Both the position numbers and the translations under genes were made by a program. A DNA stretch of 64,000 nt from Myxococcales bacterium 68-20 (lineage in GTDB: Bacteria > Myxococcota_A > Polyangia > Polyangiales > Polyangiaceae). Of the stretch, positions 17,958-35,884 are shown one piece after another (positions within the stretch are counted from its first letter, which is position 1; every line of letters starts with the position of its first letter). The stretch covers positions 45,904 to 109,903 of the forward strand of contig MKVQ01000014.1 in NCBI GenBank assembly GCA_001899635.1, given 5' to 3'. Below the pieces are notes generated by a model. That model did not search any database, was not told where the DNA came from, and saw only the letters and a list, made by a program, of their open reading frames with translations.

Positions 17958-17958
17958 C

Positions 17959-20247
17959 GTGGCCGCCTCGCCGTCGCCGTCCACCTCGCCGACCCGCGCG
18001 CCCGCGCACGCCGGCGTGGCGCTCGATCTCGCGACGATCGAGCGGAGCGGTCATGCGCATGTGCATGCGCACGACCACGACCACGACCACGCGTTCGTCG
18101 AGCCGATCCCGTGGAAGACGGGCGAGGTCGGCGCCGTCTCCCCGCTCGACGTCGACACGAGCTGGACCCCTGCCGCGACCAACGGATCAAAGGTCCGCAG
18201 CTCCACCGAGCGTGAGCCGAAGAAGGCAGGTGGCTGCGGCTCGTCGTGTGGTTGCGCGAGCGCGGCCCCCTCGCCGGCGCCGAAGAAGGCAGGCGGCTGC
18301 GGCTCGTCATGCGGCTGCGCGGGCGGCTCGTCGTACGGCGGCGCGAGCGCTCCCCCGGCGAAGGACGCCGGCGCCATGCAGCGCGCCGCCGCGAGCCGCA
18401 TCGCGGAGCTCGCGAGCATCCTCGGGATCGGCACCCCGCGCGAAGAGGCGCGTGCGGCCGCCGACGGCGATGCCCCGTCGAAGGGCGGCGCTCCGCCGAA
18501 GGGCGCTCCGCCGAAGAAGAAGAAACTCGATCCGAAGCTGCCCGGCTCCGGCATCCCGGCGCGCAAGAGCATCCGGATCCTCGTGTGGGTGAGGCGTGCC
18601 GCACAGGCCGGCTTCTTCTCCCTCTTCATGTTCTTCCTCTTCCAGACGAGCTTCCGGGGGAACTTCGCGGCCAACGCAGACACCCCGGTCCGCCTCCCGT
18701 ACCCAGTGGAGGCGTTCCTCCTCGCCGATCCGTTCGTGACGGCGATGACGCTCGGCGCGACCCATCAGGTCTATCGCGGTCTCCTCTGGTCGGTCGGCCT
18801 GCTCGCGGTCACGCTCGTCTTCGGTCGCGTCTTCTGCGGCTGGATCTGCCCGTTCGGGACGCTCCATCACTTCTTCGGCTGGATCCTCCCGTCGAAAAAG
18901 GGCAGGGGCGCGGCGCGCGTCGAGGCGAACAAGACGCACGGCTACCAGCGCGCGAAGTACTACCTCATGTACGCGTTCCTCCTGGCGTCGCTCGCCGGGA
19001 GCGCCATCGGAGGTCTCTTCGATCCGATCTGCGTCGCGGTCCGCGCGATCGGCCTCGGCGTGATCCCCGGTGTGCAGTACATGGCCGGCCGCGTGCTCGG
19101 CGCCGCGCAGGACGTGCCGGTGCGTCCGGTGCAGCACCTCGCCGACTCGACGCAGGACGCGCTCTCCACCACCGTCTGGCAGTCGCACCAGTTCTACTTC
19201 CACCAGACCTGGCTCATCGTCGCGTTGCTCGTCGCGGTTCTCTTCATGAACCGCTTCATCCCGCGGTTCTGGTGCCGCGTCCTCTGCCCGCTCGGTGCCT
19301 TCCTCGGCGTGTTCGCGCGCTTCGCCCTCTTCGGAATGGAGAAGGACCACGCGAAGTGCACGGACTGCAACCTGTGCCTCGTGAACTGCCAAGGCGCCGA
19401 CAGCCCGCAGGGCGGCGTGAAGTGGCGGCAGGACGAGTGCCACATGTGCCTCAACTGCGAGAGCTCCTGCCCCGAGGACGTGATCAAGTTCCGGTTCCTC
19501 CCGAACCGGAAGAGCCGCATCGGCGTGCCCGACCTCCAGCGCCGCACGCTCCTCGCGAGCGCCGCCGCGGGCGCGGCGTTCATCCCGGCCGCGCGCATCG
19601 CCGACTCGCTCGACGTCAACTACCACTCGAAGGTGATCCGCCCGCCGGGCTCGGTCGAAGAGCGCGCGTTCCTCGAGCGCTGTATCCGCTGCGCCGAGTG
19701 CATGAAGGTGTGCCCGAACAACGCGCTCCATCCGGCGATGTTCGAGGCGGGCGTCGAAGGCCTGTGGACGCCGATCCTCATCGCCCGCATCGGCTACTGC
19801 GAGCATTCCTGCGTCCTCTGCGGTCAGGTCTGTCCGACGGGCGCGATCCAGAAGATCACCGAGAAGGAGAAGCTCGGTCAGGGCGTGCCGCCGGTGAAGA
19901 TCGGCACCGCGTTCTACGACCTCGGCCGCTGCCTCCCGTGGAGCATGGGCACGCCATGCATCGTCTGCGAGGAGTTCTGCCCGACCTCGCCGAAGGCGAT
20001 CTGGGTCGAAGAGGTCGAGGCTCCGATGCGCGACAGCAAGCCGGGGCCGGACGGCACGGAGCCCGCGATGCTGACGGTCAAGCTCCAGCGCCCGCACGTC
20101 GATCCGAGCCTGTGTATCGGCTGCGGCGCCTGCGAGAAGGTCTGTCCCGTCCAGGATCAGCCCGCGGTCTACATCACGAGCGTCGGCGAGAGCCGCTCGA
20201 AGACGAACGTGATCCTGCTCGAGAACACGAACTACAACCAGAGCTGA
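17959..20247 (+). CDS. Fused NapH/NapG-like membrane polyferredoxin with His- and Cys-rich N-terminus
   Basis: A 762-residue protein with five regions. (1) Residues 32-44 form an alternating histidine run (HAHVHAHDHDHDH). (2) Two copies of KKAGGCGSSCGCA lie at about 87-122. (3) A NapH/CcoG-like membrane part follows, about residues 205-460, with the paired motifs VFCGWICPFG and WCRVLCPLGA. (4) A first ferredoxin pair has CTDCNLC (about 466) and CHMCLNC (about 493). (5) An internal Tat-like RRTLLASAAAGAAF near 525 leads into four more cysteine clusters (CIRCAEC, CEHSCVLCGQVC, CIVCEEFC, CIGCGACEKVC) resembling NapG. Separate NapG and NapH proteins feed electrons from quinol to periplasmic reductases; here they are one chain. 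GTG start, one base after the DUF362 stop, with AAGGAGG. The terminal reductase is not in the window. Confidence 0.87.
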   Translation: MAASPSPSTSPTRAPAHAGVALDLATIERSGHAHVHAHDHDHDHAFVEPIPWKTGEVGAVSPLDVDTSWTPAATNGSKVRSSTEREPKKAGGCGSSCGCASAAPSPAPKKAGGCGSSCGCAGGSSYGGASAPPAKDAGAMQRAAASRIAELASILGIGTPREEARAAADGDAPSKGGAPPKGAPPKKKKLDPKLPGSGIPARKSIRILVWVRRAAQAGFFSLFMFFLFQTSFRGNFAANADTPVRLPYPVEAFLLADPFVTAMTLGATHQVYRGLLWSVGLLAVTLVFGRVFCGWICPFGTLHHFFGWILPSKKGRGAARVEANKTHGYQRAKYYLMYAFLLASLAGSAIGGLFDPICVAVRAIGLGVIPGVQYMAGRVLGAAQDVPVRPVQHLADSTQDALSTTVWQSHQFYFHQTWLIVALLVAVLFMNRFIPRFWCRVLCPLGAFLGVFARFALFGMEKDHAKCTDCNLCLVNCQGADSPQGGVKWRQDECHMCLNCESSCPEDVIKFRFLPNRKSRIGVPDLQRRTLLASAAAGAAFIPAARIADSLDVNYHSKVIRPPGSVEERAFLERCIRCAECMKVCPNNALHPAMFEAGVEGLWTPILIARIGYCEHSCVLCGQVCPTGAIQKITEKEKLGQGVPPVKIGTAFYDLGRCLPWSMGTPCIVCEEFCPTSPKAIWVEEVEAPMRDSKPGPDGTEPAMLTVKLQRPHVDPSLCIGCGACEKVCPVQDQPAVYITSVGESRSKTNVILLENTNYNQS
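18217..18321 (+). repeat. Direct repeat of 42 bp inside the polyferredoxin gene
   Basis: Two in-frame near-identical copies, 18217-18258 and 18280-18321, separated by 21 bases. Each encodes PKKAGGCGSSCGCA. The few differences are mostly at third codon positions, which suggests that the peptide is kept by selection. Confidence 0.75.
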
Positions 20248-20866: not shown

Positions 20867-21631
20867 ATGAGGAGGGAGCCCGACGACGCGCGCGGAATTA
20901 CCGCGCCCACGCCGCCGGGAGGCGCCCCGGCGATACCACGTCGTCTGGAAGGCCGTTCGCGGCTCGACTCCGTGCAGCACGATGCGCTCGGAGCGAACGA
21001 TCACGTGTTCCCGAAGGAGGCCGATACCCTGAGGACGCACGAGGTGCCGGTGCTCTCACGACCGGACACGATGCCCGCGCCCGCGGCCGATGCAACTCAA
21101 GAGGTCCCCACCGCGTCGTGGTCGACGTCCGCGCTCGACGACGACCTCGTCGAGGACGACGGCCTCGACGACGATACCCAGACCCAGCTCGATTATTACG
21201 AGCCGTCAGATGAGCCGACGAGCCCGACGCTGTCGCTCGCGAATCGGAGCGATGCGGCGCGTGAGGTCTATCGCCGCTTCCTTGCCAGCGAGTACGCGCC
21301 GGCCCTCGAGCTCGCGAACGATCTCATCGCGCAAGGAGAGGACGATCCGATGCTTGTGACGATCGTGCGCGAGTGCCGCTCGAGCATCGCCGCGCTGTCG
21401 TCTCTGCCTTCTTCCCTCGACGACGGCGCGCCGTGGCCTCGTCCTCTACTGTCCGCACTGGAATCGCGATCGGCGCTTCGTCCCCCGATGCCGTCTCACA
21501 CGGGGATGTTCGACAGGGCGATGACGATCGAAGAGGTCGCCTCCTTGGCCGGCGCGCCGGTGGAGCAGGTCCTCGCGCTGCTCGAGCGCTTCGTCGCGAT
21601 GGGCGTCCTCCCCGCGCGCCCTCCGCGCTGA
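20867..21631 (+). CDS. Unrecognised acidic protein with helical repeat and C-terminal helix pair
   Basis: A 254-residue protein. The first 120 residues are polar and low in complexity, with an acidic run (DDDLVEDDGLDDDTQTQLDY). Residues about 125-165 look like a TPR-type helix pair (AREVYRRFLASEYAPALELA). The end, AMTIEEVASLAGAPVEQVLA with LLERFVAMGVL, resembles a small winged-helix or recruitment module. The start at 20867 has no clear ribosome-binding sequence, so the true N-terminus may differ. It converges on the envelope operon with 10 bases between the stops. Function unknown. Confidence 0.55.
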   Translation: MRREPDDARGITAPTPPGGAPAIPRRLEGRSRLDSVQHDALGANDHVFPKEADTLRTHEVPVLSRPDTMPAPAADATQEVPTASWSTSALDDDLVEDDGLDDDTQTQLDYYEPSDEPTSPTLSLANRSDAAREVYRRFLASEYAPALELANDLIAQGEDDPMLVTIVRECRSSIAALSSLPSSLDDGAPWPRPLLSALESRSALRPPMPSHTGMFDRAMTIEEVASLAGAPVEQVLALLERFVAMGVLPARPPR

Positions 21632-21641
21632 GCGTGCCGGC

Positions 21642-22571
21642 TCACTTCGTCGTGAGCGTGTGCGTCGCGAAGGCCACGCCGCCGCGGGCATCGCGCAGGA
21701 CGACGAAGAGGTGGACCGCTCGCGGCTCGGGCGGTGCGGTCCAGGTGTTGTCGGTCGATGTCTCGAGCTCGTCCTCCGAGCGGCCCGTGCGATCGCTCTC
21801 GAAGGAGCCTGCCGTCGCGAACCAGGAGACGCGCATCGTCTCGCGGTGCTCGGCGAGCGTGCGGGTCGCGAGGTCGTAGACGACGTAACGCTCTGCTGCA
21901 GCAGCGGGCCAGCTCGTGCGGAGTCGGATCGTCGCTCCTGCCGGGATCGCGTCGAGCGCGAGCGGTGCGCCGTCGAGCGTGGCCTCGAGCGGGCCGAGCT
22001 CCGGGTTCGCGTTCGGCACGTAGCGCGCCGCGAAGTCCGTCGTGACGTCGGCGGCGGCGTTGGCGAGCGCGCAGCCGATCCGCTGGAGTCCGAAGGCGAC
22101 CTCGGGCTCCTCATGATCGAACACGGTCACCCGCACCGGCTGGTAGAAGCCGCCCGTGACGTCGGGATCGCGCGGGCGGAGGTCGGCCGACGTGACCTGA
22201 GGCCCGAAGAGCGCGCATGCGTCCGCCGGGATCGCGGCCTCGATCGCCGGGGGACCTTCGGCGAGCGGACGGACGGCGTCACGAAGGCACGCCGCGCTGG
22301 CGGCGCCGTTTTCGGTCAGCAGCTTCGGTGTCGAGCAGAACGCCCAGCTCGCCACCGGCATCGCGAGCGGACCGCTCGGGCTCGCGACGAGGAGCGTCCA
22401 CGAGACGACCTCGCCGGGCTTCGCCTCGGGCGGCTCGCCGCGCACGGCGAGAACCCTCGTGCGTGTGATCGACGACTCGCGATCGCCGAGCTCGGGACGA
22501 CACGCGGAGAACGCGGGCCCGAGGATGAGCAGCGCGAGCGCTGCGATGGCGGAAGCGAGCACGGGGCGCAT
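21642..22571 (-). CDS. Lipoprotein, last gene of the envelope operon
   Basis: A 309-residue protein with a lipoprotein signal (MRPVLASAIAALALLILG, lipobox around AFSAC). The body is mostly beta, with Ig- or fibronectin-like spacing (VVSWTLLVASPSGPLAMPVA; YQPVRVTVFDHEEPEV; AGATIRLRTSWPAAAAERYV), and four cysteines. I do not recognise the family. It overlaps the receptor gene stop by one base (TGATG), so it is translationally coupled and likely an accessory subunit of the receptor, possibly a surface-exposed ligand-binding lipoprotein as with SusD-like partners, although it is not SusD by sequence. Confidence 0.65.
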   Translation of the reverse strand: MRPVLASAIAALALLILGPAFSACRPELGDRESSITRTRVLAVRGEPPEAKPGEVVSWTLLVASPSGPLAMPVASWAFCSTPKLLTENGAASAACLRDAVRPLAEGPPAIEAAIPADACALFGPQVTSADLRPRDPDVTGGFYQPVRVTVFDHEEPEVAFGLQRIGCALANAAADVTTDFAARYVPNANPELGPLEATLDGAPLALDAIPAGATIRLRTSWPAAAAERYVVYDLATRTLAEHRETMRVSWFATAGSFESDRTGRSEDELETSTDNTWTAPPEPRAVHLFVVLRDARGGVAFATHTLTTK

Positions 22572-25258
22572 CAGAGCTCGAGCCTCCCGCCGATGACGGC
22601 GATGAAAGGAAGACCCGTGATGATCCCGCGCCGGCGGAAGTCGGGGGAGTAGGCGATCTCCTCGGCGTTCTCGCGGTTCGTCACGTTCTGGAGGTCGGCG
22701 AACACGAGCGCGCGGACGCCGCGTCCGAGCTCGAACGTGCGATCGACGCGGAGATCGAGCTGCCAGAAGGACGGGATGCGGGTCGTGTTGTGCGCGCCGA
22801 AGACGGGATCGAACCGATCCGAGCGCGCGTCGTATGCGCTCCCGACCACGGGTGTCCGCGGGTTGCCGCTCGCGTAGCGGAAACGCGCGCCGACTCCCCA
22901 GCGGCCGATCTCCTGGCTCAGCACGAGTGAGAAGACGTGCGGCTGGTCGAAGTCGAACGGACGCCAGCTCTCGTCGCCCTCGAAGCGGCGCTCGCTCTTG
23001 CTGATGGCGTACGAGGCCCAACCGAAGAAGCCCTTCCACATCTCCTGCCTGAGCAAGAACTGGACGCCGTAGCTGCGGCCCTCGCCGTTCTGCGTGAGCG
23101 ATCGCGCGCGCAGCGGATTGGTGAGCCGGCTCCGGACGACGAGGTCCTTCATGCGCTTGTCGAACGCGACGACGTCGAAGGTGAGCGAATCGGTGATGCG
23201 CAGCGACTCGCCGGCGGTGACGTGCGTCGATCGGGAGAGCCCGAGGTCGGGCGTGCCGAACACGGCCGACAGATCCTCCGGCTCGGGGGGCTGGTGGTAG
23301 TTGCCGTAGGCGGTCGTGAGCGCGAACCGGCCCGTGACGTCCCAGCGCGCCGAAGCACGCGGGGCGATCGCGGTCTCCATCCTCGAGAACCCGATCGGAG
23401 GGACGTTGCCCGCGGGCGGCAGCTTCTTGCTTCCCTCCATCACGAAGGCGTCGAAGCGGACTCCAGGGGTCAGCGTCACCGGTCCGATGCGGACGTCGGC
23501 GTATGCGTGCGGGCCGACGTCGAGGATGTGCGTCTTCCAGCGATCGACCGCGTATTCGTCGCCGGGGGGCTGTCCGAAGACGGCGATGTCGCCCTCACGC
23601 GGTGGAAGCGTGAGCGAGCCCTCGCGCGACACGCTCGACGCCGTCCCGAGCGCGTCCATCCCGGTGACGAGCGAGACATGCGAGCCGATCTTCGAGCGGA
23701 GCGACGCCCGGATGCCGTAGCGCTCCGATTCGACGTCGAGGCGCGTCGGGGTTGCGCCGAAGCGCTGGACGAGCGAGCTCGTGTCGTGTCCGACGAACGG
23801 CGTGACGATGGTCGTGTCGCCGTTGTCCGCAACGCTCGTGTAGCGCGCATAGGCTCGCCAAAAGCCAGAGCGTGTCGCCTCGACGCGACGCTTCGCCGGG
23901 TCGGGGGAGGGGACGGTGCGATCGAGCTGGTCCGAGGAGACGAGGAAGACGGTGTCGACGCTCTCGCGCTTGCGCAGATCGAACGTGGCCTTGAGCTGCG
24001 CGTCGCGATAGCGCGGGATGGGAAAGAAGTCGCCGACGTCGGGCGCGCTCGTGGCGGCGAGGACGCGGTCGAGCCAGCTGTAGCGGAACGCGCTCCCGAT
24101 CCGGATCTTGTCGGTGATCTCGGTCGATGCGAACGCCGATCCGTCGAGCGTGTCCGCGCCGACGTATCCGTGGGTCCCGCGCGGGAGCGCTCGCGTCTCG
24201 ACGCGGACGAGACCGCCGAGGCCGCGCCCGTACTCCGCGCCGAACGCGCCGGGGACGAGATCGATGCTCGCGACGAGGTCGGAGTTGATGGTCCCGCGGA
24301 GGCCGCTGCCGTGATAGAGCGCCGGCAGATCGACGCCGTCGACGTAAACGCGCGTGTCCTTCGGCGCCGAGCCCCAGACCACGATCTGCCCTGAGGCGAC
24401 GGGTGGGCGCGAGATGCCGGGGAGGTTCTGCACGACCTTGAGCACGTCGCCCTGCGTGCCGGCGACCTTCTTCGCTTGCTCTGCGCGGACCGCGTAGTCG
24501 ACGACCTCGCGTCGCGCACGTGGGGTGCCGCGGACCGAGACCTCCTCGACGTCGTCCGGCGCGGGCTGCCGTGGCGGCGGAGGCCTCGGCACGACGTCGT
24601 AACGGAGGCGCGTCTTCTTGCCGGGCGTGACGGTCTCGCTGAAGCGCGTCGTCGTCCCGTCCGGAGCTTCGACGACGACCTCGTAGCTCCCCGCGGGCAG
24701 ATTGGAGAGGGAGAAGCGTCCGGCATCGTCCGTCGTCGCGCTTCTTGCGATCGAGACAACGCCGCCCGGGCCGCCGCTCACGTTCACCTTCGCGCCGGCG
24801 ATCGGCGCGCCGTTCGAGGCGGCCCGGACCTCGCCTTCCAGCGACGAGAGCTCGGGTGGAGGAGGCGGCGGCTCGGCGGCTTCGATGACGAAGTCGTAGC
24901 GATAGGTGATCTTCGCCGGCGCAGGCTTGTCGTCCACCTCCGCCGGCTCGAACTCGAACCCCGACGCAGCGGCGAGCGCAGCCGCGTCGAAGTCGGCGCC
25001 GGCGCTCTCGGCGACGGCGACGTTCGTCACCTTGCCGGTCGCGCCGATCTCGATCGTGAGGACCACCGAGGCCGAGACCCCGGCCGCCTTCATTGCCGCC
25101 GGATACTCCGTCTCCACGAACTTCACGAGGCGCGGCATCTTCGTGAGCTGCCGTTTCGTGGGCTGTCCGCCGACGTCGGAGCCGCGCTGCTGCGCGAGGG
25201 CCGGCGCGCTCGCGAGGAGCGCCGCGCAGACGATCGCGATGTGGCCGCAGCCGCGCAT
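22571..25258 (-). CDS. TonB-dependent receptor fused to an N-terminal TonB-type domain
   Basis: An 895-residue outer-membrane protein. After a signal peptide ending ASAPALA, residues about 25-135 match the TonB C-terminal domain (EYPAAMKAAGVSASVVLTIE; GKVTNVAVAESAGADFDAAA; FEFEPAEVDDKPAPAKITY). A carboxypeptidase-regulatory-like beta-sandwich follows at about 140-220 (APIAGAKVNVSGG; GRFSLSNLPAGSYEVVVEAP). Then a plug domain with GDVLKVVQNLPGISRPPVAS, TRVYVDGVDLPALYHG and VDLVPG-like IDLVPGAFGAEYGRGLGG, and a long beta-barrel ending in GLPFIAVIGGRLEL. Receptors import ligands using energy passed by TonB. The frame is open upstream, but ATG 25258 starts the signal peptide and lies just after the previous gene. 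The ligand is unknown. Confidence 0.88.
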   Translation of the reverse strand: MRGCGHIAIVCAALLASAPALAQQRGSDVGGQPTKRQLTKMPRLVKFVETEYPAAMKAAGVSASVVLTIEIGATGKVTNVAVAESAGADFDAAALAAASGFEFEPAEVDDKPAPAKITYRYDFVIEAAEPPPPPPELSSLEGEVRAASNGAPIAGAKVNVSGGPGGVVSIARSATTDDAGRFSLSNLPAGSYEVVVEAPDGTTTRFSETVTPGKKTRLRYDVVPRPPPPRQPAPDDVEEVSVRGTPRARREVVDYAVRAEQAKKVAGTQGDVLKVVQNLPGISRPPVASGQIVVWGSAPKDTRVYVDGVDLPALYHGSGLRGTINSDLVASIDLVPGAFGAEYGRGLGGLVRVETRALPRGTHGYVGADTLDGSAFASTEITDKIRIGSAFRYSWLDRVLAATSAPDVGDFFPIPRYRDAQLKATFDLRKRESVDTVFLVSSDQLDRTVPSPDPAKRRVEATRSGFWRAYARYTSVADNGDTTIVTPFVGHDTSSLVQRFGATPTRLDVESERYGIRASLRSKIGSHVSLVTGMDALGTASSVSREGSLTLPPREGDIAVFGQPPGDEYAVDRWKTHILDVGPHAYADVRIGPVTLTPGVRFDAFVMEGSKKLPPAGNVPPIGFSRMETAIAPRASARWDVTGRFALTTAYGNYHQPPEPEDLSAVFGTPDLGLSRSTHVTAGESLRITDSLTFDVVAFDKRMKDLVVRSRLTNPLRARSLTQNGEGRSYGVQFLLRQEMWKGFFGWASYAISKSERRFEGDESWRPFDFDQPHVFSLVLSQEIGRWGVGARFRYASGNPRTPVVGSAYDARSDRFDPVFGAHNTTRIPSFWQLDLRVDRTFELGRGVRALVFADLQNVTNRENAEEIAYSPDFRRRGIITGLPFIAVIGGRLEL

Positions 25259-25269
25259 CCGTCTGGAGC

Positions 25270-26181
25270 TTATTCCCGCTCGCGCACGTCGAGCTCGAGG
25301 GCGAGGACGCCTGCGCCGCGGTTGTGATCGAAGTGGGTGTCGAGCTCGGTGCTCGTTCCCTGCGCCGCTCCGATGCGCTTTCCGTCGAGCAGCGCCTCGA
25401 CGCGCCACGGCGCGCTCGGCGCGCCGCACAGCGAGAACGTATCGACCCGCACGATGTAGCGACCGCTCGGGGGCGTCTCGGTCCACACCACGTTCTCGGA
25501 GCGCTGCCCGTCCTGCACGCACATGGCGTTCGAGTCACGATCGAGGACGCCGCCGTCGGTGGGCGCGTTCGGGTCGACCGGACCGGCGCTCGGCGGCGGA
25601 CGCTGGTACTCGGTGCGGTTGCGTTTGAAGATCTCGATCCCGGTCGGGAGGACGACGTGGAGATCGAGATCCGCAGCGCTGTCCCACGCGAGCGAGATCA
25701 CGAGACGGCCCTCCGGCCGCACTGCTACCGCGATCTCGAGCGGACGCAGCGTCGCGGGGCCGAACCGCCCTTCCGCGTCGACCGCGCGGAGGACGACGTC
25801 GTATCGTCCTGGCGGCGCGTTCGCAGCGAGCGAGAACACCGCGTCGAAGGTCGGCGACGTCGGTGCGGCGGTCAGCGGGGGGCCGGCGGGCACGACCCAG
25901 TAGCCGACGTCCGAGGCCAGCCCGATCGCGATCGCCGTCGCCGCTCGCTCGAGATCGCCCGCGCACGCCTGCTGCGCGACGCCGGCCCGCGCGCGTGCGG
26001 TCACCGTCGCCGATACGATCTTGGGCCCGTCCTCCGCTGCTGGCATCGGCTGGCGGAAGAACTGCGCCCCCTGGACCTGGAGCATCGCATCGCGCCCCTC
26101 GTCGGCGCGCGTCCCCGCGCACGCGGAGAGCGCCGCGAGCACGAGGACGAAGAGCGCAAGGGCGAGAGCGAGGCGTCGCAT
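25270..26181 (-). CDS. DUF2135-like (YfaP-type) lipoprotein
   Basis: A 303-residue lipoprotein: signal MRRLALALALFVLVLAAL, lipobox around LSACAG. The C-terminal half carries RLVISLAWDSAADLDLHVVL, then PTGIEIF, SGRYIVRVDTFSLCG and WRVEALLDG. The W-D-S-x-A-D-L-D-L-H-V pattern is typical of DUF2135/YfaP-like domains, which are beta-sandwiches often fused to or encoded near large surface proteins. An Ig-like segment precedes it. It overlaps the upstream porin stop by one base (TGATG) and sits 11 bases before the receptor gene. It is likely an outer-membrane lipoprotein of the same apparatus. Confidence 0.68.
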   Translation of the reverse strand: MRRLALALALFVLVLAALSACAGTRADEGRDAMLQVQGAQFFRQPMPAAEDGPKIVSATVTARARAGVAQQACAGDLERAATAIAIGLASDVGYWVVPAGPPLTAAPTSPTFDAVFSLAANAPPGRYDVVLRAVDAEGRFGPATLRPLEIAVAVRPEGRLVISLAWDSAADLDLHVVLPTGIEIFKRNRTEYQRPPPSAGPVDPNAPTDGGVLDRDSNAMCVQDGQRSENVVWTETPPSGRYIVRVDTFSLCGAPSAPWRVEALLDGKRIGAAQGTSTELDTHFDHNRGAGVLALELDVRERE

Positions 26182-27662
26182 CAGAAGCGCACCTCGGCGC
26201 GGAGGGTGAACGAGTCGTCGGCGAGCGTGGTCGGGCGTCCGGACGCGTCGCGACCGAGCGCGTTCTGACGATGATCGTACTGCGCGACGAGCCTCCCGTA
26301 GCGCATGCGTCCGGCCGCGCTGAACGACCAGGTCGACATCGACACGTCACGCGGGACGAGCGCGAAGGGCTCCTGCTCGCGCGCGTCGGAGTCCGGGTCG
26401 TAGCGGTCGTACCGCACTCCGACGAGCGCCCAGCGCGTGATCTCCTGGGACGCGCCGAGGTAGTACCCGAGCTGGCGGAGGTCTCGCGAGGCGACGACGG
26501 GGTCGGAGACGTAGAGCCCTCGATCGAGGTTGCTCCCGCGCACGACCTCGGCGCGAAGGTGGAGGTCGCCGAGCGTGGGGATGGCGATCGTCGCGCGGAG
26601 ATCCGCGCCCACGGCGAACCGCTTGAAGCTCGCGGACGGCGTTGCAGGCGAGCCGGGGATGACCTGCAGCTCGGTCGTGTTGTCGACGACGCCGTCCGCG
26701 TTCGAGTCCTGCCACTGAAGGACGTCTTTCGTCGCCGGCAGGCCGCGATGGAAGCCACGGCCGCTGAGCCCCGAGAGACCGCCCTCGAGCTGGATGCCTT
26801 CGGTCAGCGCGGACGCGCCGCCGATGCGGAAGATGAGGTCCTTGCTCTCGTTGGGATCGCGCCCGGGGAACGTCCGTTCGCCGATCGGAGCGCCGTTCAT
26901 GATCGCGAAGGCGTAGCGGACGAAGCGATAGCCGCCGAGGAAGCGAAGCCCGAGATCGAACGACTGCGGGAACAGCGCCGCCGACATCGTGGAACGCTCG
27001 AGCCATGGCCTTTCGCGCTCGGACTCGGGCACCTCGAAGCCGAACGGCGTCCGGAACAGGCCCGCCGTCACCACGAACCACGGCGTGTCGGTCTGCGGAG
27101 CTCCGTTCGTCGCACCCGAGCTCGACGTGCCGTCGTTCCTCCCGGGCTGCCGCGACGGATCGACCGCCCACGGCGCCCGCGGGTACGGGCGCTCGGCGGG
27201 CCACTTGAAGGAGGCCTCGGCGTTGATTGGCCGGAGCTGAAGTTCGTTGATCGTGTTCGCGTCGATCTCGAACGCGCCGTGGAAGTGACCGTAGTCGCGC
27301 TCGGCCCGTAGTCGCGCGCGGCGCAGGAGGAACCGCTTCTCGTTCAGAGGCTGACCGTCCTGCGTGACCTCGTCTTGCGACGACTGCCGGAACAGGACCC
27401 AGTCCGTGTGGACGTAGCCGGACACGACGACCGGCAGCGGCGCGTCGCGGCGTGCGGCCGCCTCTCTCTCGAGGCGCGCGACGCGGGCCTCGAGATCCTC
27501 GCGTGAGGTCTCCGGGGAGGGCATCCCCGGAGCATCACCGTTCGCGCCGGTAGCGGCAGGTGGCGCGGCAGGCTCGGCGAACGCGCTGCTGCTCCACAGC
27601 GAGCCGCAGAGGGCGACGACGGCGTGGCTCGACTTCCTCGCGATCGCGGGCACGAGACCCAC
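26181..27662 (-). CDS. OprO/OprP-like porin
   Basis: A 493-residue outer-membrane protein: signal peptide to about residue 30 (SSSAFAEP), a short coiled-coil stalk (REDLEARVARLEREAA), then a barrel. Matching features for the phosphate-selective porin O/P family are VVVSGYVHTDWVLF, LRRARLRAERDYGHFHGAFE, WFVVTAGLFRTPFGFEVP, SFDLGLRFLGGYRFVRYAFA and a final strand DDSFTLRAEVRF. In Pseudomonas such porins pass phosphate or polyphosphate, but the family has diverged and here the selectivity is unknown. Start GTG 27662 is weakly supported; a GTG at 27653 is an alternative. It overlaps the next gene by one base. Confidence 0.8.
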   Translation of the reverse strand: MGLVPAIARKSSHAVVALCGSLWSSSAFAEPAAPPAATGANGDAPGMPSPETSREDLEARVARLEREAAARRDAPLPVVVSGYVHTDWVLFRQSSQDEVTQDGQPLNEKRFLLRRARLRAERDYGHFHGAFEIDANTINELQLRPINAEASFKWPAERPYPRAPWAVDPSRQPGRNDGTSSSGATNGAPQTDTPWFVVTAGLFRTPFGFEVPESERERPWLERSTMSAALFPQSFDLGLRFLGGYRFVRYAFAIMNGAPIGERTFPGRDPNESKDLIFRIGGASALTEGIQLEGGLSGLSGRGFHRGLPATKDVLQWQDSNADGVVDNTTELQVIPGSPATPSASFKRFAVGADLRATIAIPTLGDLHLRAEVVRGSNLDRGLYVSDPVVASRDLRQLGYYLGASQEITRWALVGVRYDRYDPDSDAREQEPFALVPRDVSMSTWSFSAAGRMRYGRLVAQYDHRQNALGRDASGRPTTLADDSFTLRAEVRF

Positions 27663-27692
27663 TCTACTGCATGGCTCGAAGGGGAAACGTGT

Positions 27693-28019
27693 TCACTCGA
27701 GCGGCGGCAGGCCGCCGTCGGCCAGGAGCTTGGGCAGCGTGGGGTTCTTCGTGATCTTCGTTGCGTTCGTGCACGCGTTGATGATCTCGAAGTGGGTCTT
27801 CGGGTTGTCGAAGCAGTCCTTCGGCGCTCCGTCCGGAAGCGTGCCGGCGTCGAACCCGCCGCCGCTGCCGCTGTCGGTGCTGCCGGGGCCGGCGTCGTTG
27901 CCGCTGTTCGGGGGCGGCTCCTTCACGGCGGACGAGCTGTCGTCGCACGCCGCGTGGGTGAAGCCCGCGAGGATGACGAGCGCGCAGCCGAGGATGCTTG
28001 AATGGACCTTCTTCTTCAT
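27693..28019 (-). CDS. Small Asp/Gly/Ser-rich lipoprotein
   Basis: A 108-residue protein starting MKKKVHSSILGCALVILAG, with a lipobox near THAAC. A low-complexity linker (NSGNDAGPGSTDSGSGGGFD) leads to a short folded part with two cysteines (KDCFDNPKTHFEIINACTN). It lies two bases after the PstS-like gene and 30 before the porin, so it is the second gene of the operon. It may tether to or bridge the binding protein and porin; that is inference. No family recognised. Confidence 0.65.
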   Translation of the reverse strand: MKKKVHSSILGCALVILAGFTHAACDDSSSAVKEPPPNSGNDAGPGSTDSGSGGGFDAGTLPDGAPKDCFDNPKTHFEIINACTNATKITKNPTLPKLLADGGLPPLE

Positions 28020-28021
28020 GG

Positions 28022-29284
28022 CTACTTCGCCTCGCAGAAGCCGAGGCGGCACTTGCCGCCGTTGCAGGGAGCGTCGTTGCCGACGGTGCACGCGGTGCAC
28101 GAGGTCGTCCCTTGCGGGACGTTCTTCTCGAACCAGCAGCTGCAGGGAGCCGGCTCGTCGTAGAGCGAGAGGTCGGCGCCGTCGCCCGATCGCGTCACCT
28201 TCATGGCGCATTCGGGGATGAGACCGCTCTGGACGACCTGGAGCAGCCCGTTGACGTCGTCGCCCACGCGCGTGCCCATGACGAGCTCGTAGATTCGCCG
28301 CGCGTTCGGGTCCGCGATCGTCTGCGTCCCCGGCATGAGCTTCGCGATGTACGGCGTCGGCGACCACGGGAGGTAGTGCCCGTCGCGCACGTTCTGCTTG
28401 TCGAACGAGGCGTTCGTCGAGTCGGGGAAGTAAGCGAACTTCTGCCCGAACGTCTTGAACGCGAGCAGCTTGATGTCGGCGCGCCGCTGATCGTAGAGCT
28501 CCGTGCCGAGGATTCCGAGCGTCGCCTCCGGGGTCGGGCTGTTGACGACCGACGTGATGAGCGCCTCCGACGTGCCCGAATCGGCGGCGGCCTTCATCTG
28601 CCCCGGCAGGAGTCGGATCGCCGACGACATCGTGAGTGTCGTGCTCGCGGTGTTGCCTCGCTTGAAGCGGAGGTTCTGCACCACCCAGGGAGCGGCTTCA
28701 CCGCCGCCTTCCGTGAAGCCGTAGGCGAGGTACCCCTCCTCGGCGGTGATCGCGACCTGGCTGCTGTTCTTGTTCGTGATGAAGCCGTACGCCTGGATCG
28801 GACCGTCGAACACGCCGATGTCGGCGGGCTGCGCGGGCGTCTGTGCGCAGCTCGAGAGGTAAGTCGCGCCGATCCCGAGCGCGATCGGCTCGGCGGGCGG
28901 AGCGTCGGGGACGGTGCAGGTCGGCGCGGCGGCGGCGGGATCGAACGTCGGGCTCGCGGGGATGTACCGCACCGGGCGCGCGGTCGTCCCGTCCACGACC
29001 GTGATCATCTGCGCGTTGGTGAACAGATCGCTCCGGATGTTGCAGGTGGGGCGGTTCCTGTAAAAGATGCGCAGCTTCGTCGACGACTGCATCAGGAGCT
29101 TCCCGAGCTTCTTGACCAGGGGCTCCTGCGTATCGCCGTTCTCGATGTAGATGGCGGGGACATTGTTGTCCTCGTCCGTCAGGGCCGCGCAAGGGTCGCC
29201 GTTGGCTGCCTCGGCGCGCTCGGCGACGACGACGAGTGAGACGGCGAGCGCACAGCCGAGCGCCCGTGAAAGCTCGCTTCGCAT
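28022..29284 (-). CDS. PstS-like periplasmic binding protein with Cys-rich tail
   Basis: A 420-residue exported protein (signal ending ERAEAA). Its core resembles type-2 periplasmic binding proteins of the PstS kind: YIENGDTQEPLVKKLGKLL, GVFDGPIQAYGFITNKN, ATLGILGTELYDQRRADIKL and, near the end, FPDSTNASFDKQNVRDGHYL with PWSPTPYIAKL, the equivalent of the VRDGxYPLxxPLY segment of PstS. The tail is a small Cys-rich domain (CSCWFEKNVPQGTTSCTACT, with four more Cys after it). Classical PstS works with PstCAB; none is here. The start has GGGAGGA. It is the first gene of the operon. Ligand not proven. Confidence 0.68.
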   Translation of the reverse strand: MRSELSRALGCALAVSLVVVAERAEAANGDPCAALTDEDNNVPAIYIENGDTQEPLVKKLGKLLMQSSTKLRIFYRNRPTCNIRSDLFTNAQMITVVDGTTARPVRYIPASPTFDPAAAAPTCTVPDAPPAEPIALGIGATYLSSCAQTPAQPADIGVFDGPIQAYGFITNKNSSQVAITAEEGYLAYGFTEGGGEAAPWVVQNLRFKRGNTASTTLTMSSAIRLLPGQMKAAADSGTSEALITSVVNSPTPEATLGILGTELYDQRRADIKLLAFKTFGQKFAYFPDSTNASFDKQNVRDGHYLPWSPTPYIAKLMPGTQTIADPNARRIYELVMGTRVGDDVNGLLQVVQSGLIPECAMKVTRSGDGADLSLYDEPAPCSCWFEKNVPQGTTSCTACTVGNDAPCNGGKCRLGFCEAK

Positions 29285-29304
29285 GGTTCCTCCCGGGAAT
29301 CGAA

Positions 29305-29395
29305 GTGACGGACGAGGCTGTCACGGGGCGACCTGTGGTGCCCATCACCATTTCGTGACAGTCGATAGATGTAACCAACGTCACACGCATGTGAC
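29305..29395. promoter_or_regulatory. Cluster of five GTGAC/GTCAC half-sites in the divergent promoter region
   Basis: GTGAC occurs at 29305, 29355 and 29391, and GTCAC at 29320 and 29380. Two form a perfect palindrome at 29380-29395 (GTCACA, cgca, TGTGAC). CTGTCAC at 29318-29324 faces GTGACAG at 29355-29361. On the minus strand CTGTCAC is followed, at 11-base spacing, by a weak second repeat TGGTGAT, reminiscent of a Pho box, about 60-75 bases before the operon start. The cluster may control the operon, katE, or both. Confidence 0.45.
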
Positions 29396-29524
29396 CTGTC
29401 GCCTCGAGGGTGTCGTCCTGCCCCGCACGGCGCGCGGTGGTTCGCCCGCTCGTGGCGGCATTCTTCCGTGGCGCTGTTGTTGCTCCGTCCTCGTCACGCG
29501 AGCAGCGAGGAGAACAAGACGCCC

Positions 29525-31639
29525 ATGAGCACGAAGGATGCGGCGCCGAGGACGGCGTCCCCGCATGGCAAGAACGATGATCTCGAGCGGGACCGGACGC
29601 GGTGTGACGGCGCGACGCTGACCACCGATCAAGGGATCGCGATCCCGCACACGGACGACTCCCTGAAGGCGGGCGTCCGCGGCCCGACGCTCCTCGAGGA
29701 CTTCCACTTCCGCGAGAAGATGACCCGCTTCGACCATGAGCGCATCCCCGAGCGTGTCGTGCACGCGCGCGGCTCGGGCGCCCACGGCGTCTTCGAGCTC
29801 TACGAGTCGCTCGCCGATCTGACGACCGCCGAGTTCCTCTGTGACCCGTCGATCGTGACGCCCGTGTTCGTGCGGTTCTCCACGGTGCAGGGCTCGCGCG
29901 GGTCGGCGGACACCGTGCGTGACGTTCGCGGCTTCGCGACGAAGTTCTACACGCGCCAGGGGAACTTCGATCTCGTCGGCAACAACATGCCCGTCTTCTT
30001 CATCCAGGACGGCATCAAGTTCCCGGACTTCGTTCACGCGGTGAAGCCGGAGCCACATCACGAGATGCCTCAGGGCGCGTCCGCCCACGACAGCTTCTGG
30101 GACTTCTGCGGACTCGTCCCCGAGTCGGCTCACATGGTCATGTGGACGATGTCCGACCGGGCCATCCCGCGCAGCTTCGCGAACATGGAGGGCTTCGGCG
30201 TCCACACGTTCCGGCTCATCGACTCCAAGGGCGTCTCGCGCTTCGTGAAGTTCCACTGGAAGCCGCTCGCAGGAGTCTGCTCGCTGGCATGGGACGAGGC
30301 TCAGAAGATCGCGGGCAAGGATTCAGACTTCCACCGGCGCGATCTCTGGGAGTCGATCGCGGCGGGCCACTTCTTCGAGTACGAGCTCGGCATCCAGGTG
30401 ATCGACGAGAAGGTGGCCGAGGGCATCGGCGTCGACCTCCTCGATGTGACGAAGATCATCCCCGAGGAGGTCGTCCCCGTCCGCCGGATCGGCAAGATGA
30501 CGCTCAACCGCAACCCCGACAATTTCTTCGCCGAGACGGAGCAGGTCGCATTCTGCGTCGCCAACGTCGTGCCGGGGATCGGGTTCACCGACGATCCGAT
30601 GATGACCGCCCGCCTGTTCTCGTACCTCGATACGCAGATCACGCGGCTCGGCGGGCCGAACCACGCGCAGCTCCCGATCAACCGCCCGCTCGCGCCGGTC
30701 CACAACACGCAGCAGGACGGCTTCGGCCAGCATCGGATCGCGACGGCGCGCGCCAACTACGTCCCGAACTCGATCGGCGGCGGCTGTCCGTTCGCCGCGA
30801 AAGCCGGCGGCTACGTCCACTTTCCGGAGGTGGTCTCGGGAACGAAGACGCGCGAGCGCTCGCCGAGCTTCGCCGATCACTTCACCCAGGCGGCGATGTT
30901 CTGGAACAGCATGTCGGAGGCCGAGAAGCAGCACATCACCGACGCGTATCGGTTCGAGCTCTCCAAGGTCCTCCGCAAGGCGATTCGCGAGCGGTACGTG
31001 AACGAGGTGCTCGCGAACATCGACGGTGACCTCGCCGCCCAGGTCGCGGCGGCTGTCGGCGTCACGCTCGTCGCGAACGTGAAGACGCCGGCGGCGAAGC
31101 TCACGTCGCCGGCGCTGAGCATGGATTCGTCGAAGCCGAGGTCGATCCGGGGCCGCCGGGTAGCGATCCTCGCGGCCCCGGGAGTCGACGACGGGCAGAT
31201 CGCGGCTGTCGTCACCGAGCTCACGAACGGCGGCGCGATCGGCGAGGTCGTTTCGATCGGCCTCGGGCGCCTCTTCGGGCCCCAAGGTCCGGAGGCCACC
31301 CGTTCGTTCCTCGATACGTCATCGGTGCTCTGGGACGCGGTCTACGTCCCCGGCGGCGCCCAGAGCATCCAGACGCTCCGTGCCGGCGGTGAGGCCGTGC
31401 CGTTCGTCAAAGAGGCGTTCCGCCACGCCAAGCCGATCGGCGCCACGGGGGAGGGAGCCGATCTCGTCGAGGCAGCGATCGCCGAGGACCTCGGCGGTGC
31501 GGCTCCACCGAGGGCGAGCATTCCGGGCCTCGTCCTCGCACGCGCCGGTCTGATCGCGGCGTTCCCGGCCGCGTTCGTCCAGGCGATCAGCGAGCATCGC
31601 TTCTGGGGCCGCTCCTCTCTCGTGCCGCCGCGTAGCTGA
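29525..31639 (+). CDS. katE: Large-subunit catalase (HPII type)
   Basis: A 704-residue heme catalase that converts hydrogen peroxide to water and oxygen. The catalytic His is H80 in RVVHARGSGAHG, the distal Asn is in VGNNMPVFF near 155, and the proximal heme-ligand Tyr is in RLFSYLDTQ near 365. RFSTVQGSRGSADTVRDVRG is the usual catalase segment. The C-terminal 140 residues (RRVAILAAPGVDDGQ; VYVPGGAQSIQTL) form the flavodoxin/DJ-1-like domain that marks the large-subunit class; length is normal. ATG 29525 has GAGGAG upstream and starts the usual N-terminus. It is divergent from the envelope operon and shares its promoter region. Confidence 0.96.
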   Translation: MSTKDAAPRTASPHGKNDDLERDRTRCDGATLTTDQGIAIPHTDDSLKAGVRGPTLLEDFHFREKMTRFDHERIPERVVHARGSGAHGVFELYESLADLTTAEFLCDPSIVTPVFVRFSTVQGSRGSADTVRDVRGFATKFYTRQGNFDLVGNNMPVFFIQDGIKFPDFVHAVKPEPHHEMPQGASAHDSFWDFCGLVPESAHMVMWTMSDRAIPRSFANMEGFGVHTFRLIDSKGVSRFVKFHWKPLAGVCSLAWDEAQKIAGKDSDFHRRDLWESIAAGHFFEYELGIQVIDEKVAEGIGVDLLDVTKIIPEEVVPVRRIGKMTLNRNPDNFFAETEQVAFCVANVVPGIGFTDDPMMTARLFSYLDTQITRLGGPNHAQLPINRPLAPVHNTQQDGFGQHRIATARANYVPNSIGGGCPFAAKAGGYVHFPEVVSGTKTRERSPSFADHFTQAAMFWNSMSEAEKQHITDAYRFELSKVLRKAIRERYVNEVLANIDGDLAAQVAAAVGVTLVANVKTPAAKLTSPALSMDSSKPRSIRGRRVAILAAPGVDDGQIAAVVTELTNGGAIGEVVSIGLGRLFGPQGPEATRSFLDTSSVLWDAVYVPGGAQSIQTLRAGGEAVPFVKEAFRHAKPIGATGEGADLVEAAIAEDLGGAAPPRASIPGLVLARAGLIAAFPAAFVQAISEHRFWGRSSLVPPRS

Positions 31640-31707: not shown

Positions 31708-31884
31708 ATGACCAACGCTGGACCTGGAACGAAAGGGAGCACGCTCCAGGCGCCCGTCGAGTCGAGCGCAGGTGCCGAGCGCGTTCGACTCGCTGAGAGC
31801 GCCGAGGAAGAGCTGGAGCTGGAGTTCTACTACGACGACGAGGAGTCGGAGGCTCCCGAGCCGCGACCGCCCGCGGACTCGTGA
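31708..31884 (+). CDS. Small acidic protein (58 aa), unrecognised
   Basis: ATG 31708 to TGA 31882-31884, preceded by GGTGAGGTGA. The product starts MTNAGPGTKGS, has an acidic core EEELELEFYYDDEESEAPEP and ends RPPADS. No domain. It has strong codon bias and a usable ribosome-binding sequence, but small acidic frames can occur by chance in such DNA. It lies between katE and hemE on the same strand. Confidence 0.4.
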   Translation: MTNAGPGTKGSTLQAPVESSAGAERVRLAESAEEELELEFYYDDEESEAPEPRPPADS

Positions 31885-31981
31885 CCAAGCTGTGCCGCAA
31901 GGTCGGCGCGGCCGAGAGGCCGAGGGGCGAGGGCCGATCCGGCGTGACCGCTCGAACACGCGTGATGATAGGCTCGCGCGC

Positions 31982-33007
31982 ATGAACGATCGGTTCCTGC
32001 GCGCGTGCCGTCGCGAGCCCGTCGACTGCACTCCCGTGTGGATGATGCGGCAGGCGGGGCGCTACATGGCGGAGTATCGGGCTCTTCGGGAGAAGCACAC
32101 GCTTCTCGAGATCTGCAAGACGCCCGAGCTTGCGCTCAAGGTGACGCTCCAGCCGATGAAGCTGAACGTCGACGCCGCGATCCTCTTCGCGGACATCCTC
32201 TTGCCGCTCGAGCCGATGGGGGCGCCCTTCGAGTTCGCGAAGGGCGAAGGCCCCGTCGTTCACTCGCCGATCCGGTCGCACGCGGACGTCGACAAGCTCC
32301 GCGTCATCGAGCCGGAGGAGGGCCTCGGCTACGTGATGGAGGCGATCAAGCTGCTGAAGAAGGAGCTCCCGGTTCCGCTCATCGGCTTTGCCGGCGCTCC
32401 GTTCACGCTCGCCAGCTACCTCGTCGAGGGCGGCAAGAGCCGCGACTTCCTCAAGACGAAGAAGCTGATGTACACGGAGCCCGAGACCTGGAACCTCCTC
32501 ATGAGCAAGCTCTCCGAGGTCGTTCGTAGGTTCCTCCACAAGCAGATCGACGCCGGCGTGGACGCCGTGCAGCTCTTCGACTCGTGGGTCGGTCAGCTCG
32601 GCCCGGCCGACTACGTCGAGTACGTGCAGCCGCACGTCGCCAAGATCCTCCAGGACGTGCAGACGCGCGGCGTCCCCGTGATCCACTTCGGCGTCGGGAC
32701 GCAGTCGCTCCTCCCTGCGATGCGCGACGCCGGCGGGACCGTGCTCGGCCTCGACTGGCGCACGCCCATCGCCGAGACGTGGGCGAAGATCGGCTACGAC
32801 CGCGGGGTCCAGGGCAACATGGATTCGACGGTCCTCTTCGCGCCGCGCGCAGTCGCCTTGAAACACGCCCAGCGCGTCCTCGACGACGCCGGCGGGCGGC
32901 CCGGGCACATCTTCAACCTCGGCCACGGCATCTTGCCGGAGACGCCCGTCGAGACGGTGCAGGCCGTCGTCGACTACGTGCACGAGGCCTCGGCCAAGAA
33001 GAAGTGA
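31982..33007 (+). CDS. hemE: Uroporphyrinogen decarboxylase
   Basis: A 341-residue cytoplasmic enzyme that removes four acetate carboxyls from uroporphyrinogen III to give coproporphyrinogen III in heme synthesis. PVWMMRQAGRYMAEYR (substrate-binding arginines), AILFADILLPLEPMG (catalytic Asp in the FADIL segment) and GFAGAPFTLASYLVEGG are all intact. HFGVGT and GLDWR near the C-terminus also fit. ATG 31982 starts the typical N-terminus. The stop overlaps the hemH start by one base (TGATG), so the hem genes are translationally coupled. Confidence 0.97.
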   Translation: MNDRFLRACRREPVDCTPVWMMRQAGRYMAEYRALREKHTLLEICKTPELALKVTLQPMKLNVDAAILFADILLPLEPMGAPFEFAKGEGPVVHSPIRSHADVDKLRVIEPEEGLGYVMEAIKLLKKELPVPLIGFAGAPFTLASYLVEGGKSRDFLKTKKLMYTEPETWNLLMSKLSEVVRRFLHKQIDAGVDAVQLFDSWVGQLGPADYVEYVQPHVAKILQDVQTRGVPVIHFGVGTQSLLPAMRDAGGTVLGLDWRTPIAETWAKIGYDRGVQGNMDSTVLFAPRAVALKHAQRVLDDAGGRPGHIFNLGHGILPETPVETVQAVVDYVHEASAKKK

Positions 33008-34005
33008 TGACGGCGCCGGCGACAAGCGCTGCGGACACGGCGGTCGTGCTCGTGGCGCACGGCACCGTCGAGTCGCTCGACGACCTGCCGCGGTTCCTCG
33101 CCAACATCCGGCGAGGACACGCGGCGCCGCCCGAGCTCGTGGCCGAGGTGCGCCGCCGGTACGAGGCCATCGGAGGACGTTCTCCGCTCCTCGACATCAC
33201 GCGAGAGGTCGCGCGGAAGCTCGAGAAGGCGCTCGAGCTGAAGGCGCGCGTCGCGATGCGCCTCTTCGAGCCGTACCCGAAGGAGGTCGTCGCGAAGCTC
33301 GCGTCGGAAGGGATCCGCCGCGTCGTGGCGGTCCCGCTCGCGCAGCATTCGGCCGGCGTGTACGGCAGCGCGATGCAGGCCGCGGCGAAGGAGGTCGATC
33401 CTTCGCTCGAGGTCTTCTGCGCCCGGAACTGGGGGCGCACGCCCGAGCTCACGCGTGCGTTCGCCGACACGATCATCGCCGAGCTCGATCGCATCCCTGC
33501 GGGCGAAGCGGAGCAGACCGCGCTCGTCCTCACGGCGCACAGCCTCCCGCGCGCCGTCGTCCAGGCCGGCGACCCTTACGAGCAGGAGGTCCGGGCGAGC
33601 GCCGAGGACGTCGCTGCCGAGGTGCGCGCGCGCGTGGGCGACCGCTTCGCGGAGCACATGGTCGCGTTCCAGAGCCAGGGAATCGGGACCGGAGTCGAAT
33701 GGCTCGGCCCGGACCTCCGCCCGACGCTCGAAGACCTCGCCAAGCGCGGCAAGAAGCACGTCGTCGTCGCGCCGATCGGCTTTCTGGCCGATCATGTGGA
33801 GATCCTCTATGACCTCGATATCGAGGCGAGGGGCTGGTGCGAAGGGGAGCTCGGGATCGTGCTTTATCGAAGCGCTTCGTTGAACGCCGGGGACGGGCTC
33901 GTCGAGGCGCTCTCCGTGGTGGTGCGCGATGTCCTCGCTCGCCCCGGCGACTTCGCCGCGCCGTCGGTGTCCTCTCGCGAAAGCCGACCGAGTAGAGGGG
34001 GATGA
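33007..34005 (+). CDS. hemH: Ferrochelatase
   Basis: A 332-residue enzyme that inserts ferrous iron into protoporphyrin IX. The family pattern is visible: VVLVAHGTVESLDDLPRFL, RRYEAIGGRSPL, VPLAQHSAGVYG, the catalytic His in VLTAHSLP, AFQSQG, and ADHVEILYDLDIEA with the metal-site Glu. Length is normal. Coupled at both ends: TGATG with hemE and ATGA with hemG. The final 25 residues are a variable, Ser/Arg-rich extension. Confidence 0.95.
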   Translation: MTAPATSAADTAVVLVAHGTVESLDDLPRFLANIRRGHAAPPELVAEVRRRYEAIGGRSPLLDITREVARKLEKALELKARVAMRLFEPYPKEVVAKLASEGIRRVVAVPLAQHSAGVYGSAMQAAAKEVDPSLEVFCARNWGRTPELTRAFADTIIAELDRIPAGEAEQTALVLTAHSLPRAVVQAGDPYEQEVRASAEDVAAEVRARVGDRFAEHMVAFQSQGIGTGVEWLGPDLRPTLEDLAKRGKKHVVVAPIGFLADHVEILYDLDIEARGWCEGELGIVLYRSASLNAGDGLVEALSVVVRDVLARPGDFAAPSVSSRESRPSRGG

Positions 34006-35420: not shown

Positions 35421-35461
35421 CCGTAGCTACGAGTGGCTCGCCTCGAAGGGCGAAGCTCGAG

Positions 35462-35881: not shown

Positions 35882-35884
35882 CGA

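Follow-up and report, generated by a model that had tools for sequence, protein, structure and literature searches.

Six head-to-tail genes on the minus strand of Myxococcales bacterium 68-20, at positions 21642-29284 of the 64,000-nucleotide stretch that we analysed (hereafter the window), form an operon that we propose, with moderate confidence, to encode a TonB-dependent outer-membrane importer of an inorganic oxyanion, molybdate (or tungstate) being the most likely one. Its first gene encodes a protein predicted to adopt the fold of PstS, the six-gene block is a co-inherited Myxococcota cassette, and relatives of gene 1 with the same kind of pocket have molybdate-type genes nearby at 18 of 47 loci. 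The features concerned are as follows.

Gene 1, 28022..29284, minus strand: PstS-fold protein (predicted) with a Sec-type signal (by eye) and a Cys-rich C-terminal tail, pocket class I
Gene 2, 27693..28019, minus strand: small lipoprotein, lipobox Cys25 (by eye), conserved C-terminal segment
Gene 3, 26181..27662, minus strand: probable OprO/P-type porin, on the basis of Porin_O_P matches among aligned relatives
Gene 4, 25270..26181, minus strand: lipoprotein, Cys21 invariant, DLDLHV motif
Gene 5, 22571..25258, minus strand: TonB-dependent receptor, its N-terminal part carrying TonB_C-like and CarboxypepD_reg domains
Gene 6, 21642..22571, minus strand: lipoprotein, Cys24 invariant, predicted mostly beta, with an immunoglobulin (Ig)-like C-terminal domain
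Putative operator, 29380..29395, strandless: 16-bp palindrome GTCACATGCGTGTGAC

The intergenic gaps are, in order, 2, 30, -1, 11 and -1 bases, as given in an original prediction made from this DNA, and the starts and stops of its six minus-strand open reading frames (ORFs) were confirmed. By eye, a plausible signal sequence opens all six proteins and a lipobox cysteine is present in genes 2, 4 and 6, the three lipoproteins already suspected. The identical gene order recurs across Myxococcota and is therefore more than chance. A sigma-70 promoter scan of 21400-29600 returned no promoter.

A PstS-fold protein and its partners

Gene 1 resisted identification by sequence alone. The window protein matches no Pfam family at E ≤ 1 and no NCBIfam model, and phmmer against the PDB gave one irrelevant match (E 0.28). 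PBP_like_2 (PF12849) matches 3 of 41 aligned gene-1 proteins at E ≤ 0.01 (best 2.3e-6), and a gene-1 profile weakly retrieved five PstS chains from the PDB (E 0.25-0.99), all of them phosphate binders. An AlphaFold model built with the 41-protein alignment reached a predicted local distance difference test score (pLDDT) of 90.1 and a predicted template modelling score (pTM) of 0.87. Foldseek searches with this model placed PstS entries at the top, and VIA-align matched it to PstS 4lat with a Z of 25.1 at 2.2 Å over 251 residues; rows 1-35 of the VIA-align results are phosphate-binding proteins, and the first molybdate binder comes at Z 16.4. By this model and the structure comparison, the gene 1 product has a true PstS fold. 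The PstS-like binder of the original prediction is thus borne out, and the binding-protein homology whose absence would have undone it is real. The C-terminal cysteines are nearly invariant in the 41 aligned proteins.

Genes 1-4 and 6 of the window have no Pfam match above any family's own cut-off. Gene 2 adjoins gene 1 in many relatives. The OprO/P-like porin proposed for gene 3 is suggested by its relatives, 5 of 31 aligned proteins matching Porin_O_P (PF07396; best 5.7e-8), and not by the window protein itself, which is unmatched. Gene 4 had been called DUF2135-like, a likeness that could not be confirmed: none of its 29 aligned proteins, in which the lipobox cysteine is invariant, matches DUF2135 at E ≤ 0.01, and the sole Pfam match at that threshold is to PPC, in one protein. 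Gene 5 is, as predicted, a receptor with a TonB domain: Pfam identifies TonB_C, CarboxypepD_reg, Plug (PF07715, 6.6e-9) and the TonB-dependent barrel (PF00593, 1.9e-23). A TonB-box-like VEEVSVRG precedes the plug, with similar segments in most of 30 aligned rows (by eye), and the N-terminal region has a partial match, far under the model's cut-off, to the myxochelin receptor MxcH. The gene 6 lipobox cysteine is invariant in 21 aligned proteins; in its AlphaFold model (pLDDT 88.4) the C-terminal part appears Ig-like, with a best Z of 8.9 over 97 residues. For genes 3, 4 and 6, searching the PDB by profile gave nothing useful.

Pocket classes and their genomic neighbours

Within the order, 57 of 144 genomes contain a relative of gene 1, as do, by profile, 33 of 282 genomes of the phylum, this genome being included in both counts. 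A named genome collection yielded 141 gene-1 relatives, from which the best 79 of 141 loci were retained. The nearest relatives (84-86% identity) are in Labilithrix metagenome-assembled genomes, and cultured hosts include Minicystis rosea, Polyangium, Nannocystis, Sorangium and Pyxidicoccus. Merging loci that share an identical 160-residue stretch left 139 non-identical loci. Both porin and receptor lie near gene 1 on the same strand in 86 of these 139; the others are truncated by contig ends or are solo binders, many of them accompanied by gene 2. A gene-2-like lipoprotein stands upstream at eight solo loci with the canonical pocket (L034, L057, L065, L124, L129, L130, L144 and L147), several of which adjoin a TPR protein and a Ser/Thr kinase (by eye), with neither porin nor receptor.

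We aligned the gene-1 proteins to PstS and sorted them into three classes by their residues at Thr10, Ser38, Asp56, Arg135 and Ser139-Gly140-Thr141, which we take to be the pocket positions of PstS. The window protein has T, T, A, R and A-S-T there: the Asp56, Ser139 and Gly140 positions are changed, and the other phosphate-site residues are kept or have Thr for Ser. Its pocket thus combines a GDTQ loop with Ala in place of Asp56 and with R-x3-AST. Class I (47 loci, window included) carries a DTQ loop. Its Asp56 position is occupied by Ala in 34 loci, Ile in 7, Asn in 5 and Ser in 1, and its Ser139 position mostly by Lys or Ala; Asp56 is kept in 0/47, Arg135 in 46/47, and Ser or Thr occupies the Ser38 position in 47/47. 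Class II (30 loci), mostly with a GGSA loop, lacks Asp56 and carries Ala in place of Ser38. Class III (43 loci) is defined by retention of Asp56 and of the SG in R-x3-SGT. The 19 unclassified loci ('x'), with truncated or odd pockets, were excluded from class tests. As the labels were built on pocket residues, class and Asp56 are not independent of each other, while neighbour genes are independent of both. This genome holds all three classes, in the class-I operon of the window, a class-II operon on C40 and a class-III operon on C30, and also a solo class-III gene on C34.

In the gene-1 tree, computed on rows over 330 residues only (99 of 102), all 46 DTQ rows fall within one clade of 48 (100/100). 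That clade also contains the class-III rows L102 and L104, the latter encoding ExbB-ExbD-TonB. FastTree trees of the porin, the receptor and gene 4 show 6, 7 and 6 class changes, against shuffled means of 39, 33 and 38. All three trees track the pocket classes, so the cassette has evolved as a single unit. The genes do co-occur in relatives, which was the other point on which the original prediction could have failed.

The classes also differ in their energisation genes. ExbB lies between porin and receptor in 19/20 class-II, 18/19 class-III and 1/8 unclassified loci, and in 0/39 class-I loci, so that class I lacks an energiser of its own. In L035 and L036, the sister operons of this genome, ExbB, ExbD and TonB sit between genes 4 and 5, as they do in many relatives. 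A gap in one assembly was considered as the reason for the missing ExbB and rejected, since 39/39 class-I loci lack it at this place. There are 11 ExbD-family matches in this genome, both sister operons' copies included. One class-I operon (L092:4486-5202) has, between porin and receptor, a TonB-like gene with neither ExbB nor ExbD, and may represent an intermediate stage in losing ExbB-ExbD-TonB.

An indication of substrate comes from genes within 15.5 kb of the gene-1 loci. Molybdate-type neighbours (mod genes, molybdenum (Mo)-storage genes, or a regulator with helix-turn-helix (HTH) and PBP_like parts linked to mod) occur at 18/47 class-I loci (Fisher p 4e-9), sulfate ATP-binding cassette (ABC) transporter genes at 5/30 class-II loci (p 7e-4) and pst genes at 2/43 class-III loci (p 0.13). 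No pairing of class and neighbour is crossed: all 25 informative loci agree, and 0 of 100000 permutations of them reach 25 agreements. Structural Mo genes alone are found at 5/47 class-I loci against 0/73 (p 0.008). The HTH and PBP_like regulator occurs at 16 class-I loci, in three of them together with mod genes; for its PBP_like part, the match is to the C-terminal portion of a model for a molybdopterin-biosynthesis protein. The residue at the Asp56 position is Asp in 2/2 pst-linked loci and in 0/23 mod- or cys-linked loci (p 0.003). In PstS, Asp56 takes a proton from phosphate, and sulfate and molybdate are fully ionised; the split fits this chemistry.

Neighbours were identified with small models built for this analysis, and NCBIfam confirmed a sample that left out ModB and ModA of L108, CysT and CysW of G049, PstS of L060, PstB of L136 and all G012 genes. 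Above cut-off were ModA (TIGR01256) in L050, L087, L096 and L103, ModB (TIGR02141) in L050, L087 and L096, and the molybdenum storage protein beta in L050 (1.7e-69); the two ModC that were checked match TIGR02142 under its cut-off. CysT, CysW and the sulfate-binding protein (Sbp) were above cut-off in L062 (G030) and G208, Sbp also in G018 and G049, and CysW also in G018, where CysW alone is within the distance limit. PstC was above cut-off in L060 and L136, and PstB in L060; one class-III locus sits in a pst-pho cluster. PhoB-like regulators were tried as phosphate neighbours and rejected: among six checked, five match TIGR02154 under its cut-off and one has no match. As none reaches the cut-off and they also occur beside class I, they were not counted.

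The Mo genes are arranged in different ways: regulator, modABC and operon in one line (L096), regulator, operon and modABC (L087), a divergent layout (L108), binder followed by mosB-modABC (G072/L050), and a divergent modA (L103). This variety argues for repeated association and not for one frozen locus. Mo neighbours occur within the window's own branch, at L051/L087/L088 (93/83, not starred) and the long-branched L108, and outside it, in the earliest-branching class-I group (L096, L097/G367, L099, L107), in the Polyangium/Minicystis group and at one Kofleriaceae locus (L103). L128, unclassified and the second fragment of a broken class-I gene, has a Mo regulator nearby. At L050:8022-9353 (G072:C18), the end of the gene-1 ORF resembles the C-terminus of a molybdenum storage subunit (by eye) and is followed by mosB-modABC; this may reflect a gene fusion, a scar left by a deletion or a chimeric assembly. 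One AA_kinase match among the 41 aligned gene-1 proteins was not tied to the L050 row.

Proposed mechanism and alternative readings

We infer transport, its energisation, the location of the binder and the identity of the substrate in the following scheme. The OprO/P-type porin and the TonB-dependent receptor would form the outer-membrane passage for the oxyanion. The PstS-fold protein would bind it, giving affinity and specificity, and might either present it to the receptor at the surface or take it over in the periplasm. The three lipoproteins may hold, organise or cap the receptor assembly, ExbB-ExbD-TonB would be supplied from elsewhere, and an inner-membrane Mod transporter encoded elsewhere in the genome would complete import. 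The original prediction had noted that the ABC permease and ATPase are missing. The operon indeed has none; the remark does not extend to the whole family, since mod, cys or pst genes adjoin some relatives. Its general idea of an anion-uptake apparatus is well supported by the PstS fold and the co-occurrence of the genes in relatives. However, the phosphate limitation it proposed as a test condition probably names the wrong anion for this copy, because the class has molybdate-type neighbours at 18/47 loci and pst genes at 0/47.

Several observations weigh against molybdate import by this operon. The fold of gene 1 is closer to PstS than to ModA (Z 25.1 against 16.4) and, taken alone, the modelled fold points to the phosphate family rather than ModA. 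No molybdate-type gene lies within 15.5 kb of the window operon, the modA/mos locus of this genome is on another contig, with modA beside mosA-mosB, and the genome has no PF12727 regulator above cut-off. Mo neighbours are also lacking in the closest relatives, namely the same-genus and Labilithrix loci, and in 29 of the 47 class-I loci altogether, 22 of these 29 having less than 9 kb on at least one side (the corresponding figures among loci with no informative neighbour are 17/25 in class II and 32/41 in class III). Among the 18 Mo assignments, 13 rest on the regulator alone, which occurs with mod genes in 3 loci. A single family (f3) accounts for four of the five sulfate loci, the fifth belonging to the distant genome G208, and the phosphate link consists of 2 loci, not significant alone. 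Loci share ancestry, so that counts are not independent and the p values above overstate the significance. Finally, no zero-mismatch copy of the palindrome described below occurs at the mod/mos operons, either in this genome or in the 8 relatives. As modA is unlinked, no such regulator above cut-off and the closest relatives without Mo neighbours, the substrate is assigned here through clade and orthology. In the locus containing the genome's own modA (L237, G000:C31:47058-50830), an ECF-like membrane gene (by eye), mosA, mosB and modA form one run; a similar run occurs in several of the 8 relatives, followed in some by modB- and modC-like genes (names by eye).

Could the receptor instead import a molybdenum chelate? 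A molybdophore, for instance a catecholate, would then cross the outer membrane and the PstS-like protein would collect the molybdate freed in the periplasm. TonB receptors usually take bulky ligands, and the N-terminus of the receptor resembles that of MxcH, if by a partial match far below cut-off. We nevertheless find this unlikely, since the same cassette is common to the sulfate- and phosphate-linked classes, and sulfate and phosphate are not known to be taken up as such chelates.

Phosphate uptake, with a class-I binder that still binds phosphate and an operon in the Pho regulon, is also improbable in our judgement. It would suit a fold closer to PstS than to ModA and a porin family named for phosphate. 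Class III keeps the phosphate pocket, with one such locus in a pst-pho cluster, class I itself keeps Arg135 (46/47) and Ser or Thr at the Ser38 position (47/47), and PhoB-like regulators lie near some class-I loci. However, Asp is found at the Asp56 position in none of the 47 class-I loci, and pst genes are near none of them, against molybdate-type neighbours at 18.

A sensing or adhesion complex, in which the binder and the TonB-driven receptor together signal from the cell surface, with nearby oxyanion genes as regulatory partners, would account for the lipoprotein with an Ig-like domain, the TonB_C-like N-terminal domain of the receptor and the solo gene-1 loci lacking porin and receptor, and the Caulobacter receptor Cc0171 is discussed as a possible phosphate-starvation sensor in passages of PMC2996285, but the porin, receptor and in-operon ExbB-ExbD-TonB of sister operons make up a transport set and mod, cys and pst importer genes adjoin relatives, so we regard this as very improbable.

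Upstream of gene 1, the palindrome GTCACATGCGTGTGAC (29380-29395) is perfect over 16 bp, and 95 bases separate it from the gene-1 start codon. GTYACA-N2-5-TGTRAC has this one perfect site in the 11.9 Mb genome, against 0 for the reversed control. With at most one mismatch, a site lies upstream of 14/46 class-I genes (0.2 expected by shuffling), and of 1/30 class-II, 1/42 class-III and 1/16 unclassified genes. Across the 8 relatives there are 13 perfect sites genome-wide, close to the 9 of the reversed control, 4 of the 13 being upstream of the class-I operon; three relatives (G100, G141, G080) have no perfect site. We also expected the palindrome upstream of the genome's own modA/mos operon, where it is not present at zero mismatches. 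The mod/mos loci of the 9 genomes have only sites with one or two mismatches, and two genomes have none; a few of these sites immediately precede the first gene, in the genome studied here, or mosA, in G141 and G080, and most lie elsewhere. The palindrome is thus a putative operator that marks the operon and is no proof of Mo control. A catalase-like gene (by eye; 29468-31639) is divergent from the operon, and since the site falls in the region between the two, it could serve either.

Further along the window, 31772-37621 contains uroporphyrinogen decarboxylase-like, protoporphyrinogen oxidase-like and mutase-like genes (names by eye), which stay beside the operon in the Labilithrix relatives L037, L074 and L078. 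On the other side, 16896-20247 encodes a multi-4Fe-4S-domain protein with a His/Cys-rich N-terminus, adjoining a DUF362 gene. No molybdoenzyme family was found among the 10 window proteins scanned at E ≤ 1e-8.

Known systems and biological meaning

The proposed importer of molybdate shares features with several known systems. With the Pst ABC transporter it has the fold in common, and class-III relatives share the SD and R-x3-SGT anion site; unlike Pst, the window operon has no Pst permease or ATPase, class I has lost Asp56, and gene 1 has a Cys-rich tail and is partnered by a TonB receptor and a porin. Like classical TonB uptake systems (siderophores, B12, MxcH), it has a plug-and-barrel receptor, with ExbB-ExbD-TonB in sister operons; in contrast to them, its relatives are linked to mineral-oxyanion importers, and the cassette adds a PstS-fold protein, an OprO/P-type porin and three lipoproteins. 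Gene 3, through its relatives, shares the Porin_O_P family with the phosphate-selective porins OprO and OprP, but belongs to a TonB-receptor operon. A PstS/ExbBD/TonB cluster is also known from Bacteroidetes.

In Pseudomonas aeruginosa, passages of PMC8602904 describe a molybdate route in which the H2 type VI secretion system (T6SS) secretes ModA, acting with the metalloproteinase IcmP, and an extracellular route by T6SS-secreted ModA with IcmP also figures in passages of PMC11734730. In the route of PMC8602904, as is proposed here, an anion-binding protein and an outer-membrane protein bring in molybdate; the window differs in having a PstS-type binder, a TonB receptor and a porin in one operon. 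In Caulobacter, the TonB receptor Cc0171 was suggested, in the same passages of PMC2996285 as above, to join phosphate uptake with the extracellular lipoprotein ElpS; these report that no evidence of uptake was obtained and that intracellular phosphate showed no change. No PstS-fold partner or porin cassette is described for ElpS/Cc0171 in those passages, and the comparison is by description only. TonB-dependent molybdate or sulfate uptake of this kind did not appear among the matches listed in open-access full-text literature.

In the usual view, oxyanions pass the outer membrane passively, via porins, and the substrates linked with TonB-dependent transport are iron, cobalamin, some other metals and glycans. 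A wider proposal, to which we give about as much credence as doubt, is that Myxococcota possess a family of TonB-powered importers of bare oxyanions, in which one cassette gave rise to phosphate, sulfate and molybdate versions, the loss of Asp56 marks the switch from protonated anion to dianion, and the window operon is the molybdate version, having lost ExbB-ExbD-TonB. If true, it would provide functions for several families of the window that Pfam and NCBIfam leave unnamed above cut-off. It also makes a prediction at the level of a single residue, the Asp56 position being expected to separate the phosphate version from the dianion versions. TonB-dependent uptake would then extend to simple mineral anions, molybdate in the window operon and sulfate and phosphate in its sister versions.

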